Assembly (NCBI GenBank): GCA_018672315.1
Contig: CP076053.1
Location: forward strand, 1,909,827-1,973,826
Length of the DNA stretch: 64,000 nt
Source: Nocardioidaceae bacterium
GTDB lineage: Bacteria > Actinomycetota > Actinomycetes > Propionibacteriales > Nocardioidaceae
Reading direction: 5' to 3'
Shown here: positions 14,055 to 41,697 of the stretch, piece by piece
Layout of the letters: every line of letters begins with the position of its first letter
How positions within the stretch are numbered: position 1 is the stretch's first letter
Notes under the pieces: generated by a model
The model's database searches: none
Seen by the model: the letters and a program-made list of their open reading frames with translations, nothing else
Told to the model about the DNA's origin: nothing
Program-made: the position numbers and the translations under genes

Positions 14055-14620
14055 GCAAGCGACTGATCCTGATGGGCCCCCCGGGGGCGGGCAAGGGCAC
14101 CCAGGCCAAGGCCGTGGCCGCGACCCACGACATCCCGGCGATCTCGACCGGCGACATCTTCCGCGCCAACGTGAAGGACTCCACGGAGCTCGGCAAGAAG
14201 GCCCAGGAGTACATGGACGCCGGCAAGTACGTCCCCGACGAGATCACGAACTCGATGGTCGCGGACCGCCTCGCCGAGCCCGACGCCAAGGCCGGGTTCC
14301 TGCTCGACGGCTACCCGCGTACGGAGGCGCAGGTTGCCGAGCTCGACAGCATGCTCGCCGAGCAGGGCGCATCGCTGGACGCCGCCGTCGTGCTCGAGGT
14401 CGACGAGGACGAGCTGGTGGCCCGCCTGATGCAGCGTGCCGAGAACGAGGGCCGCAGCGACGACTCCGAGGAGGTCGTCCGCGAGCGCATGGCCGTCTAC
14501 AAGGCCGAGACCGCACCGCTGATGGACATCTACGAGCAGCGTGGCCTGCTCTGCCGCGTCGACGGCATGGGCTCGGTCGACGAGGTCCGCGAGCGCATCA
14601 GCGCAGCGCTGGAGAGCTGA
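14051..14620 (+). CDS. adk: Adenylate kinase (short-LID form)
   Basis: 189 residues from GTG in a GTGA overlap with secY. P-loop [15 protein letters not shown]-binding region with [10 protein letters not shown] and the [10 protein letters not shown] motif are present. The LID is the short type ([15 protein letters not shown]), without the four-Cys zinc site of Gram-positive long forms. Converts ATP plus AMP to two ADP in the cytoplasm. The larger open frame upstream is a secY shadow. Confidence 0.97.
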
Positions 14621-14630
14621 GCCGCACCCG

Positions 14631-15449
14631 GTGGGGTTCCGCGACCGCGGCGTCGAGATCAAGACGCCCGAGCAGATCGCGTTGATGCGCGAGGCCGGCC
14701 TGGTCGTCGGGCGCACGCTGGAGCTGCTGCGCACGGCGGTGGCACCCGGCATGACCACCGGCGAGCTCGACGCGATCGCCGAGGAGAGCATCCGCTCCTC
14801 CGGTGCGACGCCGTCGTTCAAGGGGTACCACGGGTTCCCCGGGTCGATCTGCTGCTCGGTGAACGAGGAGGTCGTGCACGGTATCCCCGGCGAGCGGGTC
14901 ATCGCCGAGGGCGACGTCGTCTCCATCGACTGCGGGGCGATCGTGCAGGGCTGGCACGGTGACGCGGCGCTGACCCTCGCCGTGGGGGAGGTGCCCGACG
15001 AGGTCGCCGAGCTGATGCGGGTCACCGAGGACTCCCTGTGGGCCGGCATCGCGGCCGCGCGCCGCGGAGGGCGGGTGACCGACATCGGGCACGCGGTCGA
15101 GACGCACGTACGCGCCGCCGGTGACTACGGCATCCTCGAGGACTACACCGGTCACGGCATCGGCACCGCCATGCACCTGCCCCCGAACGTGCCGAACTAC
15201 GGACGCCCCGGTCGCGGACCGAAGCTGGTGCCGGGACTCGCGCTGGCGGTCGAGCCGATGATCACCCTGGGATCCGCCGAGACGGTCACGCTCGAGGACG
15301 ACTGGACGGTGGTGACCGAGGACCGGTCGGTGGGCGCGCACTACGAGCACACCTTCACCCTGACCGAGACCGGCACCTGGGTGCTGACCGCCCTCGACGG
15401 CGGCAAGCAGCGTCTCGAGGCCCTCGGCGTCCCCTTCGGCGGCATGTAA
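14631..15449 (+). CDS. map: Methionine aminopeptidase, type I
   Basis: 272 residues from GTG at 14631, 10 nt after adk (GVEIKTPEQIALMREAG follows within ten residues). Metal ligands of the pita-bread fold are visible: the Asp in VVSIDCGAI, the Asp in WHGDAAL, His in YTGHGIG, Glu in AVEPMI and Glu near the end in ALEDDWTVVTED. Removes initiator Met from nascent chains. The usual secY-adk-map order is kept; infA follows after one inserted gene. Confidence 0.96.
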   Translation: MGFRDRGVEIKTPEQIALMREAGLVVGRTLELLRTAVAPGMTTGELDAIAEESIRSSGATPSFKGYHGFPGSICCSVNEEVVHGIPGERVIAEGDVVSIDCGAIVQGWHGDAALTLAVGEVPDEVAELMRVTEDSLWAGIAAARRGGRVTDIGHAVETHVRAAGDYGILEDYTGHGIGTAMHLPPNVPNYGRPGRGPKLVPGLALAVEPMITLGSAETVTLEDDWTVVTEDRSVGAHYEHTFTLTETGTWVLTALDGGKQRLEALGVPFGGM

Positions 15450-15519
15450 CCCCATGTTGTCGTCGCTCCGCGCGGCGCCGGCGACCAGCGGAGCGACACC
15501 ACAAACGTTTTAGATGGGG
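15450..15519 (+). terminator. Imperfect palindrome with T-run after map
   Basis: GTCGCTCCGC (15462-15471) pairs with GCGGAGCGAC (15488-15497), and an outer CCCCAT/ATGGGG (15450-15455, 15514-15519) extends the structure; GTTTTA follows the inner stem. It probably ends the secY-adk-map transcript. The sequence resembles a dispersed palindromic repeat, but I cannot test its copy number. Confidence 0.55.
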
Positions 15520-36818: not shown

Positions 36819-37000
36819 GACAGCTAGTCTCACACCCGTCGGGGCGGTCCCACCACCTGACTGGAGCATTGAGCAGGTGACGTACGCCCAATGGTGAGTC
36901 GAGGGTGGGAGATCGGTCCGTAGGGTCGGTGACGGTCGCCACGGAATCGACCCGACGTGGACGCGAGATCGACCCGAGGCCATCACGAGGGAGGGCTGCG

Positions 37001-38059
37001 ATGAGGCGAGGACGCGTGCTCCTGCCCGTGCTGATCGTGCTCGTTGTCGTCGGCGCGGTGGTGTCGGTGCTGGTGCCGCGAGGAGCCGGGTCGTCGCTGG
37101 AGCAGGCCGTCGAACGCCTGCCCGAGGACGTGCTGCGGGTCTCCTACGTCGACTGGCAGTCCGTACGCGCCGCCTCAGCCGACCCCGGCATCGACGCCTC
37201 CGAGCGCGAGATCGCCCGGTTCGTACGCCGCGTGGACGAGCTCGACGCCGCGCCCCTGACCGCGCTGGGCGACGAGATCGACCTCTACCAGCGCACCTTC
37301 GGCGTCTCGGTGCTGAGCGCCAGGTGGGAAGCGCTCGGCCAGTCCCGCGAGGGCGACGTGGACCTGCTCGCCGTGGACGACTCGGTCGACCTCGCCGAGG
37401 TCGAGCGACGGCTCGCGGCGCTCGGGTACAGCGAGCCCAGCGGCGGCCCCGGCTCCGGTGGCCTGTGGATCGGGGGGTCGGACCTGGTGGCGGGTCTCGA
37501 GGACGGACTGACCCCGATCGTGCAAGTCGTGGCGGTGCTGCCCGAGGAGAGGCTCGTGGCGTTCTCCACCTCCGACGTCTACCTGCAGCAGACGCTGGAG
37601 GTGATCGCCGGGGAGACGCCGTCGCTCGCCTCGGTCGAGCACGTCGAGCAGCTGGTCGCGGCGGCGGGCGCACCGACCGCGGGCGCGCTGCTGGCACAGG
37701 ACTACGTGTGCGAGGCCCTGTCGATGACCACCGCGGCGCCCGACGACCAGGTGGCGCTGGACGCCGTGGACGACGGAGCGACGCCGATGGAGGGCTACTG
37801 GTTCGGGCGGACCGGCCGCGACCTCACCATCGCGATGGCCTTCGACTCCGCCTCCCAGGCCGAGGGCAACCTGCAGGTGCGGGCCGAGCTGGCCTCGGGA
37901 CCGGCGTACGGACAGGGCGGGCGGCTCGCCGACCGCTTCGACCTCACCGCCGCCCGCGCGGAGGACGAGCTCGTGGTGCTGGACGCCCAGGTGCGTCCGC
38001 GCACGAACCTGATGACCGCGTTCGTCGAGGGTCCGGTCGGGTTCGCCACCTGTGGGTGA
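37001..38059 (+). CDS. DUF3352 family membrane-anchored protein
   Basis: 352 residues from the ATG at 37001 behind GGGAGGG. An N-terminal anchor (VLLPVLIVLVVVGAVVSVLV, 7-26) is followed by an extracytoplasmic domain beginning with LPEDVLRVSYVDWQSVRAAS and SVLSARWEALGQSREGDVD; the family is DUF3352-like. No catalytic motif visible. A possible promoter TAGGGT lies ~70 nt upstream. Role unknown. Confidence 0.65.
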   Translation: MRRGRVLLPVLIVLVVVGAVVSVLVPRGAGSSLEQAVERLPEDVLRVSYVDWQSVRAASADPGIDASEREIARFVRRVDELDAAPLTALGDEIDLYQRTFGVSVLSARWEALGQSREGDVDLLAVDDSVDLAEVERRLAALGYSEPSGGPGSGGLWIGGSDLVAGLEDGLTPIVQVVAVLPEERLVAFSTSDVYLQQTLEVIAGETPSLASVEHVEQLVAAAGAPTAGALLAQDYVCEALSMTTAAPDDQVALDAVDDGATPMEGYWFGRTGRDLTIAMAFDSASQAEGNLQVRAELASGPAYGQGGRLADRFDLTAARAEDELVVLDAQVRPRTNLMTAFVEGPVGFATCG

Positions 38060-38086
38060 GTCCGGCTCCCGGCCTCCGGCCTCCGG

Positions 38087-38184
38087 CCTCCTGAACGCCC
38101 GCGTATGCGGGCATTCCAGAAGTTGCGCGTTGCTGTGAACCCGCGCAGGTCCAGGATCAGCCGCGTACGCGGGCGTTCAGGGCG
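38087..38184. repeat. Left copy of ~95-nt inverted palindromic repeat
   Basis: Contains two palindromes, GCCCGCGTATGCGGGC (38097-38112) and CCGCGTACGCGG (38161-38172), with a GTT/CCGCGCAGG middle. Aligned by eye, it matches the reverse complement of 39268-39361 over nearly its whole length, starting with an identical CCTCCTGAACGCCCGCGTAT. It brackets the DUF559 gene on its 3' side. Confidence 0.8.
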
Positions 38185-38219
38185 GGCGCAGCCCGGGCAA
38201 AAGGCGGCACCCGTACGGA

Positions 38220-39185
38220 TCAGACGGGAGCGCGCTCGGCGAGGAAGAACTTCTCGCGCAACATCCTGATCGTCGCCTCCCGACGCGGGGGCCACAGGTC
38301 GGACCAGGTCAGGCGTACGACGGTGTAGCCCAGTGACCGCAGCCAGTCCTCGCGCTGCTTCTCGTCCCACAACAGCTCCTCGGGCGTACGGTCGCGTCCG
38401 AAGCGTCTGAGGTCGCCGTACTTCGAGCGCCCGTCGAACTCGATGACGAGCCGTCCGAGCAGCAGGTCGACGTCCGCGTGACGGTTTCCGTGCTCGATGC
38501 GGGCCTGGGTCGTCACCGGTCCCAGGCCGAGGGCGGCGACGATCAGCCGTGACACGGTCTCGCCGGGGCTCTGGCTGCCGGCGTCGGTCAGCTCGGCGAG
38601 TCGGCGCGTGTGCGACGCGCCCGGCCAGTGAGCGGTCTCCTCGACCATGTCTCGTAGCTCGTCGAGCTGGGCGCCACGGTTCAGCGCGGCATCGGCTGCC
38701 ACGACTCCGGTGAGCTCGCCGTACCGTCGCGCGAGGTCCAGGGCGGTGCGCAGCGGGCTGGTGACGACCAGGCCGTGTGCGAGGGCGCGGTGATGCTCCG
38801 GCACGGCGGCGACGTGGGCTCGGCTGCGTACGCGCGGTCTGCTGCCTCGCGGTGTCGGGACGGTGAGGTGGATGAGGTCATCGTCGACCGGGGCGGCATG
38901 TGGCAGCACGACGGGGAGGTGGGACAGCGTTGCGGCGGTCTCGTGACTGAGCACGCAGCGTCGGCCGGTGACCACGCACGCGTGGCAGCGCATCGCGAGT
39001 CGCTGGACCTCGTCGGCTGCGTTCCAGGCGTCGCTGGTGACGAAGCGGCCCCGGCGTACGCGCCGCCAGTCGCCGGAGCGTACGAGGTGCTTGATGTCGT
39101 CGTCGGTGTAGCCGGTCGCCAGGACCTCCCCGCGGGTGAAGACACCACCGCGCGCCGCGGCCTGGATCTCGAGATCGATGTGCAT
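38220..39185 (-). CDS. AbiEi-domain/DUF559 protein (PD-(D/E)xK-like), repeat-bracketed
   Basis: 321 residues from the ATG at 39185; an in-frame start at 39275 is rejected because the longer form runs into the flanking repeat. Residues 8-55 (AARGGVFTRGEVLATGYTDD, then RRVRRGRFV) are the AbiEi antitoxin-type winged-helix domain. The C-terminal part has DVDLLLGRLVIEFDG (Glu249, Asp251) and GYTVVRLTWSDLW, the DUF559/Vsr-like nuclease fold. Often multicopy in Nocardioides-type genomes (from memory). No toxin partner is adjacent. Nuclease or regulatory role is open. The gene is enclosed by inverted 95-nt repeats, suggesting a mobile or domesticated module. Confidence 0.8.
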   Translation of the reverse strand: MHIDLEIQAAARGGVFTRGEVLATGYTDDDIKHLVRSGDWRRVRRGRFVTSDAWNAADEVQRLAMRCHACVVTGRRCVLSHETAATLSHLPVVLPHAAPVDDDLIHLTVPTPRGSRPRVRSRAHVAAVPEHHRALAHGLVVTSPLRTALDLARRYGELTGVVAADAALNRGAQLDELRDMVEETAHWPGASHTRRLAELTDAGSQSPGETVSRLIVAALGLGPVTTQARIEHGNRHADVDLLLGRLVIEFDGRSKYGDLRRFGRDRTPEELLWDEKQREDWLRSLGYTVVRLTWSDLWPPRREATIRMLREKFFLAERAPV

Positions 39186-39267
39186 CCGAGAAGGGTGCGC
39201 GACGAATCGGCATTCTCCGACCCCTGGCATCCGGCCCTGTGGACAACGGTCGCGCGCTCTCGCCCTC

Positions 39268-39361
39268 TCGAACACCCGCGTACGCGGGCACTTCTGAACC
39301 TGCGCGGGGTTACAGACCCGCAGATCTTCGGGATTGCCCGCATACGCGGGCGTTCAGGAGG
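39268..39361. repeat. Right copy of ~95-nt inverted palindromic repeat
   Basis: Holds ACCCGCGTACGCGGG (39274-39288) and GCCCGCATACGCGGGC (39336-39351), ending GGCGTTCAGGAGG. Inverted relative to 38087-38184, with about three quarters or more of bases identical. It lies 83 nt upstream of the DUF559 start codon, so it may include the gene's promoter region. Confidence 0.8.
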
Positions 39362-39414
39362 GCCGGGGACGGGCCGGGGGACGGGCCCGGGGCCCGGGGC
39401 CCGGGGCCGGGGGC
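39361..39414. repeat. G/C-only tract after ppk
   Basis: A ~55-nt run of GGCC and GGGG/CCC blocks with two A residues lies between the right repeat and the ppk stop. Four or more G4 runs on the plus strand make a quadruplex possible; on the ppk transcript it would be C-rich. Confidence 0.5.
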
Positions 39415-41697
39415 CTAGCGCGTACGCCGCTTGGGTCGACGCCGCGCGCGCTCCATGGCCCACTCCTGCAGGTCCACCTGCCCGGCGCTGCGCGTCCAGG
39501 TGCCGTCGGCGTCGAGCTCCCAGGTGGAGGTGTCGGCGTCGAAGGCCACGTCGAGCAGCTCGGTGGCCTGCGAGCTCAGCTCGGGCGTACGCAGCGGCGT
39601 CAGCACCTCCACGCGACGGTCGAGGTTGCGGTGCATCATGTCGGCGGACCCGATCAGCACGTCCGGGTCACCGCCGTTGTCGAAGGCGAAGACCCGGGAG
39701 TGCTCCAGGAAGCGTCCGAGCACCGAGTGCACCTCGATGTTCTCGCTCAGCCCCTCCACGCCGGGGCGCAGGCAGCAGATGCCGCGCACCAGCAGCTGCA
39801 CGGGCACACCGGCCATGGACGCGCGGTACAGCTCGTCGATGATCACCTCGTCGACGAGCGCGTTGCACTTCATGCGGATGCGTGCGGCCCGGCCCTCCAG
39901 GTGGTGGGCGACCTCGCGGCGGATCCGGGAGACGATCCCGGTGCGTACGGTGTCCGGCGCGACCAGCAGCTGGGAGTAGCGGTAGTTGCGGCTGAAGCCG
40001 GACAGGTTGTTGAACAGGTGCGCGACGTCCTCCCCGATGTCGGGGTCGGTGGTCAGCAGGCCGATGTCCTCGTAGAGCCGCGCGGTCTTCGGGTTGTAGT
40101 TGCCCGTCCCGATGTGGGTGTAGCGCCGGATGCCCTCGGGCTCGTCGCGTACGACCATCGCCAGCTTGCAGTGCGTCTTCAGCCCGACCTGGCCGTACGC
40201 CACGTGGCACCCGGCCTCCTCCAGCTTGCGCGCCCACCGGATGTTGGCGGACTCGTCGAAGCGCGCCTTGATCTCCACCAGCGCCATGACCTGCTTGCCG
40301 GCCTCGGCGGCGTCGATGAGGGCGTCGATGATGGGGGAGTCACCGGAGGTGCGGTAGAGCGTCTGCTTGATCGCCAGCACGTTCGGGTCGGCCGCGGCCT
40401 GCTCGATGAAGCGTTGCACCGAGGTGGCGAAGGAGTCGTACGGGTGGTGCAGCAGCACGTCGCGCCGGCTCACCGCCCCGAAAATGTCCACGGGGGAGGA
40501 GCTCTCCACCTCGGCCAGCGAACGGTGCGTCTTGGGCAGGAACGGCGGCAGCTTCAGGTCGCCGCGGTCGAGGTCGGCGATGTCGCCGAGGCCGCGGAGG
40601 TCCAGCGGTCCGCGGAGCCGATAGACCTCCGACTCGGTGACGTCGAGCTCGGCCATGAGCAGCTCGAGCACGTGCTCGTCGATGTCCACGGCGACCTCGA
40701 GCCGCACCGGCGGACCGAAGCGCCGCCGGATCAGCTCCTTCTCCAGCGCCTTGAGCAGGTTCTCCGCGTCGTCCTCCTCGACCTCGAGGTCCTCGTTGCG
40801 GGTGACGCGGAAGAAGTGGGCGCTGAGCACCTCCATGCCCGGGAAGAGCCGGCGCAGGTGCTCGTGGATGATGTCCTCCATCGGCACGAACCGCTGGTCG
40901 CCGACCTGCACGAAGCGCGAGACGTTGCTCGGCACCTTGACCCGCGCGAAGTGCTCCTTCTTCGTCTTCGGGTGCCGTACGAGCACGGCGAGGTTGAGCG
41001 AGAGCCCCGAGATGTACGGGAACGGGTGCGCCGGGTCCACCGCCAGCGGCGTGAGCACGGGGAAGACCCGGTCCTTGAAGAACTTCTTGCAGTACTTCTG
41101 CTCGTCGCGGCTGAGGTCGTCCCACCGCACGACCTCGATGCCCTCCTCGGCCAGGGCCGGGGCGATGTCGTCGACGAACAGGTCGGCGTGACGTTTCATC
41201 AGCGCCTCGGCCTCGTCGAGGATCTCGTTGAGCAGGTCCCGCGGCAGCAGGCCGGAGACGCCGCGCTGGGCGACCCCCGCCGCGATCCGGCGACGCAGGC
41301 CGGCGACCCGCACCATGAAGAACTCGTCGAGGTTCGAGGTGAAGATCGTCAGGAACCGCACCCGGTTCAGCAGGGGCAGCGTCGTGTCCTCGGCGAGCTC
41401 GAGCACGCGGCTGTTGAAGCGCAGCCACGACAGCTCCCGGTCGAGGAACCGGTCGGTGAAGCCGAGCTCGTCGAGGTCGACGGGCTCCTCGACGTCCGCT
41501 GCACCGTCCTCGACCGGCAGGATCTCGATGCCCGCGCCGCCCTTCGCGACCGCCTCGGCGTCCGCGGGCCGCCCGATGGCCTCGGTGCCCGACGTGCCCG
41601 CCGCCGGCACCCCTCGCTGGTCGGCGTGCTCCGTCGAGGACGCGGTCTCGTCGGTCACGGGCTCAGCAGCGGAGGTGTCGGTGGTGCCAGCACTCAT
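39415..41697 (-). CDS. ppk1: Polyphosphate kinase
   Basis: 760 residues. [21 protein letters not shown] opens the PPK N-terminal domain; [40 protein letters not shown] and [15 protein letters not shown] follow. The THCKL histidine corresponds to the autophosphorylated His435 of E. coli PPK1, and [20 protein letters not shown] is the second signature. Makes and degrades polyphosphate at the cytoplasmic side. About 65 extra acidic/Ala residues precede the domain. A PHO box 22 nt upstream suggests phosphate control. Confidence 0.97.

Follow-up and report, generated by a model that had tools for sequence, protein, structure and literature searches.

An AbiEi–nuclease gene between inverted palindromic arms is probably the gene-bearing form of a small RAYT/REPIN-like mobile element

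The window, by which we mean the whole 64,000-nucleotide stretch of DNA that was analysed, carries a single gene enclosed by two palindromic arms. The insertion site is formed by the 3′ end of ppk and the 3′ end of the left flanking gene (36905–38059). The features at the locus are as follows.

36905–38059, plus strand: left flanking gene, no Pfam match, convergent with ppk
38090–38181, plus strand: left arm, from the family alignment (RNA fold z −7.4)
38090–38119, plus strand: outer palindrome of the left arm
38120–38152, plus strand: central hairpin of the left arm
38153–38181, plus strand: inner palindrome of the left arm
38220–39185, minus strand: AbiEi plus Vsr-like nuclease gene (DUF559/MTES_1575-type), 321 amino acids
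38286–38573, minus strand: predicted Vsr-like nuclease part, about residues 205–300
38586–39185, minus strand: AbiEi-like DNA-binding part, about residues 1–200
39267–39358, minus strand: right arm, the left arm inverted, from the family alignment (RNA fold z −8.6)
39415–41697, minus strand: ppk (polyphosphate kinase), right flanking gene

Each arm is a copy of a 96-nt repeat, and the two copies at this locus are inverted and bracket one gene. Positions 38076–38178 and 39270–39372 are 80% complementary in inverted orientation across 103 nt, which confirms the inverted repeats around a single gene that a sequence-only reading of this DNA had described. That reading counted two palindromes per flank, whereas we find three hairpins in each copy: an outer palindrome (CCTGAACGCCCGCGTATGCGGGC...) and an inner one, with a central hairpin between them whose loop is of the TGYA type. 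Because each arm is itself quasi-palindromic, the two can also be aligned directly (71%), but the inverted alignment is better. Copies of the repeat fold with z of −6.6 to −9.3 relative to shuffled sequence, and the palindromes are therefore beyond chance. An Rfam search with the repeat returned no known RNA family, only sub-threshold, miRNA-type matches to the hairpins, and we dropped an assignment of this kind. GC-rich, CCGGCCT-like tracts lie immediately outside the arms (38066–38086 and 39362–39414) and are weakly inverted with respect to each other.

The enclosed protein has the two parts that the sequence-only reading named, an AbiEi domain and a Vsr/DUF559-like nuclease core. The first is matched by Pfam AbiEi_4 (E 4e-7) and by the PADLOC AbiEi models; the second falls below the Pfam cut-offs and is visible in the predicted structure. 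The AlphaFold model is confident (pLDDT 93.4), and a Foldseek search against the PDB aligned it with 6y8q, an AbiEi antitoxin (E 9.7e-6 over about 200 columns), and with the catalytic domain of the homing endonuclease I-Bth0305I (3r3p; probability 1.00, TMt 0.78, with an E-value of only 0.033), followed by NGO0050 and then Vsr. Domain lengths and conserved residues place the nuclease match in the C-terminal part, and residues E209, D240, E249, K255, R278 and W294 are invariant across 38 relatives. As modelled, the protein is an AbiEi antitoxin fold joined to a Vsr-like homing-endonuclease domain of the I-Bth0305I type. Its N-terminal and middle parts resemble AbiEi of the AbiE type IV toxin–antitoxin system; unlike that antitoxin, it carries a nuclease domain, its gene is bounded by arms, and no gene for an AbiEii nucleotidyltransferase toxin adjoins it (the neighbours are ppk and the gene with no Pfam match). 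A longer open reading frame of the gene, extending to 39275, starts inside the right arm. A wide protein scan across named genomes found distant relatives only, and plasmids and phages hold few relatives.

The 3.6-Mb genome (one contig), which is the only member of its genus among the genomes compared, contains about 21 copies of the 96-nt repeat. All lie at most 63 nt past a stop codon, with two overlapping one predicted gene end by 8 nt (gene calls came from a simple codon-usage script). Eight are in convergent gaps, 13 in tandem gaps, where they are always closer to the upstream stop, and none in divergent gaps. The copies are moderately diverged from one another (about 75–93%). No gene in this genome matches PF01797, the Y1 (RAYT) transposase family, which rules out a RAYT as the driver. 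Given so many gene-end repeats, two of them might flank one gene by coincidence, an explanation that we favoured at first: from the copy number, we estimate the chance of one such pair among 21 gene-end copies at about 0.1.

The Pfam family PF04480 matched only two other genes in the window's genome and missed the window gene, and paralogues were therefore sought by protein search. The arms of a second AbiEi/DUF559 gene, at genome position 2280462, differ markedly from these (GCATGTAACCCCATGTTGTGG...) and are likewise dispersed, at seven further sites, every one at a gene 3′ end. Two of these are near-perfect palindromes and three are arm–spacer–arm pairs, in which a spacer of roughly 70–110 nt replaces the gene; the latter are MITE-like internal deletions. 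One single element of this family lies inside the window.

15442–15504, plus strand: single dispersed element of the 2280462-gene family

The open reading frame at 14541–15449 takes its stop codon, TAA, from this element. In terminal inverted repeats and gene-less, short-spacer derivatives, the 2280462 family resembles the MITEs of DDE insertion sequences; it differs from them in that no DDE transposase lies between the arms. No target-site duplication was seen by inspection. Two close paralogues in the same genome (L012 and L013) have no clear inverted flanks. A third DUF559 gene (1357969, L016) has tandem GAGGGGTCACTTCCCGC arms, which recur near another DUF559 gene (L015, 664–764) and at a further site (L144, 2355–2410).

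A covariance model (R1), built solely from the 21 copies in the window's genome, was run over 342 genomes of the family and found related elements in 31 genomes, all in one other genus. Matches in G030 and G032 were judged to be chance, apparently within coding DNA. The stem sequences of the relatives are genome-specific and the architecture is kept. Each of the 71 element sites examined in relatives falls in a gap between convergent or tandem genes, and almost all directly adjoin the 3′ end of a gene; with the window's genome included, divergent gaps contain 0/92 sites (p about 1e-11, given the gap frequencies). Several elements occupy orthologous positions across species, each with the stem type of its own species. 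Moderate divergence within the genome and the many positions common to species point to slow or old movement, and the compared copies and sites show none that is recent.

One could suppose that nothing here moves: the arms would be operators and two-way terminators of an autoregulated, AbiEi-like gene, and the dispersed copies would make up a regulon at gene ends that this gene's own protein controls. Binding to inverted repeats is known for AbiEi antitoxins (PMC7319586), the arms are strong hairpins close to the start and stop of the gene, and element positions are common to different species. We consider this unlikely, because the dispersed copies sit at 3′ ends rather than at promoters, and because a fixed regulatory gene would not be expected to leave gene-less arm–spacer–arm pairs or to occur at sites that in other genomes are empty or hold a single element, as described below.

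The arms recur around other genes of the same kind. In L244, two elements surround another AbiEi/DUF559 gene that is only 27% identical to the window gene. We located AbiEi/DUF559 genes by protein profile in 22 other, element-bearing genomes and scanned 70 loci. Model R1 places elements on both sides of 15 of the 70 genes; R2, a model built from a wider element set and trained partly on the window and L244, does so at 28/70 loci and finds an element on one side at 7/70. The geometry of bracketed genes is constant, with the 5′ arm mostly 40–130 nt upstream of the start and the 3′ arm at the stop codon. For a model-free test, we took the 350 nt on either side of each gene and aligned the upstream segment with the downstream one in reverse complement, with a threshold score of >54. 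Inverted flanks above this threshold occur at 77/97 AbiEi/DUF559 loci. Among controls of like length from the same stretches, 1/239 exceeded 54 and proved to be the DUF559 gene of L244, which leaves 0/238 other genes (Fisher p 2e-57, for loci that are mutually related and not phylogenetically independent). The 29 ppk loci in the test scored at most 29, and genes with long gaps on both sides were negative. The remaining 20/97 DUF559 loci have no clear inverted flanks. In a first look at Agreia, another actinobacterial genus, flank scores were 45–73. With bracketing recurring at 28/70 such genes and in the model-free test, we dropped coincidence, which we now regard as barely credible.

Many of the DUF559 flanks are unlike the arm type of the window; each gene tends towards its own multi-palindrome arm, and paralogous genes within one genome bear different palindromes. 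Dispersed elements follow the same division: 65 of 79 find their best match among the arms of bracketed genes of the same genome, compared with a mean of 9.2 and a maximum of 20 after shuffling. The two arms of one unit reach 0.57 of the maximal alignment score, versus 0.27 for arms at orthologous loci of other species. These pairings bear on the idea that an unrelated transposase moves the units in trans, as cargo or MITEs, with the nuclease as a passenger, for example a defence gene. AbiEi relatives are indeed known in defence, but the arm sequence and the cognate dispersed copies are particular to each nuclease gene, no gene other than the nuclease was found between arms, and the window's genome lacks a Y1 transposase; a passenger nuclease therefore seems improbable to us.

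Comparison of sites across genomes reveals empty and occupied versions. At the ppk junction of three other genera, gaps of 3, 7 and 54 nt separate the ends of the two genes and are empty, and in a fourth genus the junction holds a single palindrome–hairpin element. In two more genera, it is occupied by DUF559-type genes of other lineages (L046, 3777–5032; L047, 333–1399), one with 82-nt inverted palindromic arms and the other with a 14-nt inverted repeat, TCAGGTAGTTCGTG. The ppk 3′ junction is thus a recurrent landing site for DUF559-type genes. Two other gene pairs differ in the same manner: one has a whole unit in L281 and a single element in L205, and one has a whole unit in L284 and a single element in four other genomes (L198, L208, L219 and L228). 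No target-site duplication was seen by inspection in this comparison, which was made without a close strain that has the exact empty site.

The rival that deserves most attention is a homing-type selfish gene. Here the nuclease would cut sites that hold a single cognate element, and the unit would enter by recombination between arms, so that the element is target and boundary rather than a transposon end. The nuclease fold, as modelled, is nearest to the homing endonuclease I-Bth0305I; single-element and whole-unit versions exist at the same gene pairs; and arms that are alike within a genome and different between orthologous loci are what break-driven gene conversion would be expected to produce. 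Against this, some ppk junctions have no element at all, and the unit or its arms can therefore land where no element remains. The arms are also inverted rather than direct, albeit quasi-palindromic, and the dispersed copies would still require a means of spreading. The window gene shares a predicted nuclease fold with Vsr-like (EDxHD) homing endonucleases such as I-Bth0305I, but differs from them in lying outside any intron or intein, in having a full AbiEi-like part and in being flanked by palindromic arms with dispersed copies. It is neither an insertion sequence of the DDE kind nor a homing gene carried by an intron or intein, and we take the homing-type explanation to be a possibility of some substance, on the lesser side of even.

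Our preferred reading, which we consider probable, sees in the block a small mobile element, in its gene-carrying form, that resembles RAYT/REPIN systems and uses an unrelated enzyme. In those systems (REPtron and TIRtron), too, a single-copy enzyme gene sits between inverted palindromic repeats, cognate copies are dispersed in extragenic space, inverted palindrome pairs form the minimal unit and paralogues have different repeats (PMC3116915, PMC3733652); some of their enzyme genes have unrelated terminal inverted repeats on either side (PMC3116915, PMC3733652). The differences are that the window enzyme is an AbiEi plus Vsr-like nuclease instead of an HUH Y1 transposase, that the GTAG at the hairpin foot is absent from the window arms by inspection, that the element has about 20 copies instead of hundreds and that it lies strictly at 3′ ends. 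The element would work like RAYT/REPIN systems but lacks their defining feature, the HUH transposase. The sequence-only reading had likened the locus to REP elements around an enzyme other than a RAYT, and had looked to many repeat copies in the genome, repeat pairs around DUF559 genes elsewhere and sites without the block in relatives. The about 21 copies, the bracketing at 28/70 loci by model and 77/97 model-free, the ppk junction empty in three genera and the two sites with single-element and whole-unit versions support it; neither of the outcomes that it named as contrary, repeats found only here or repeats with no link to DUF559 genes, was seen.

The observations establish the bracketing, the cognate dispersed copies, the internally deleted forms, the empty and occupied sites, the 3′-end position and the fold; how the DNA moves is an inference from them. 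Under this mobile-element reading, the AbiEi-type winged-helix half would most likely bind its cognate arms, much as AbiEi antitoxins bind inverted repeats, and the nuclease half would cut or nick them. Repair or replication would then copy whole units, gene-less arm pairs or minimal palindrome–hairpin–palindrome units to new sites, and the same copying would keep all copies of one genome alike; the window protein itself, rather than another enzyme, would be the mover. Only insertions past stop codons would survive, where the hairpins could act as two-way terminators. Since the central hairpin is a palindrome, a unit whose arms recombined with each other would lose its gene and be reduced to palindrome–hairpin–palindrome, the form common among dispersed copies.

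We also lean, with somewhat less assurance, towards a broader proposal: that in Actinomycetes the AbiEi plus Vsr-like nuclease genes supply the enzymes for an entire, hitherto undescribed class of mobile elements. Each such gene would recognize the multi-palindrome arms that belong to it, insert at the 3′ ends of genes and give rise to MITE- and REPIN-like miniatures that evolve in concert with it. By title and abstract, in partial coverage of the literature where absence is not proof, we found no paper that treats DUF559 together with repeats; one DUF559 paper reports a repair function of the Vsr kind. REP/REPIN repeats have been linked with a single type of enzyme, the HUH RAYTs; for some palindromic repeat families, such as the CGTC REPs, no enzyme is known (PMC3733652). 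In the present case, an arrangement of the REP/REPIN type is paired with an unrelated DNA-binding nuclease. If the proposal is true, a numerous gene family that now goes under the labels antitoxin or DUF559 represents a class of mobile elements, a new nuclease type joins the enzymes of transposition or homing, and the orphan palindromic repeats of high-GC bacteria gain a candidate source.

Arms and genes do not always share a history. The window gene is about 27% identical to most genes bracketed by its arm type, and in a tree it groups with genes that bear other arm types, far from most genes with its own. Arms and genes therefore may sometimes have been re-paired in evolution. At three bracketed genes (L257, L267 and L281), extra copies of the element occur in tandem or about 1.2 kb past the 3′ arm.
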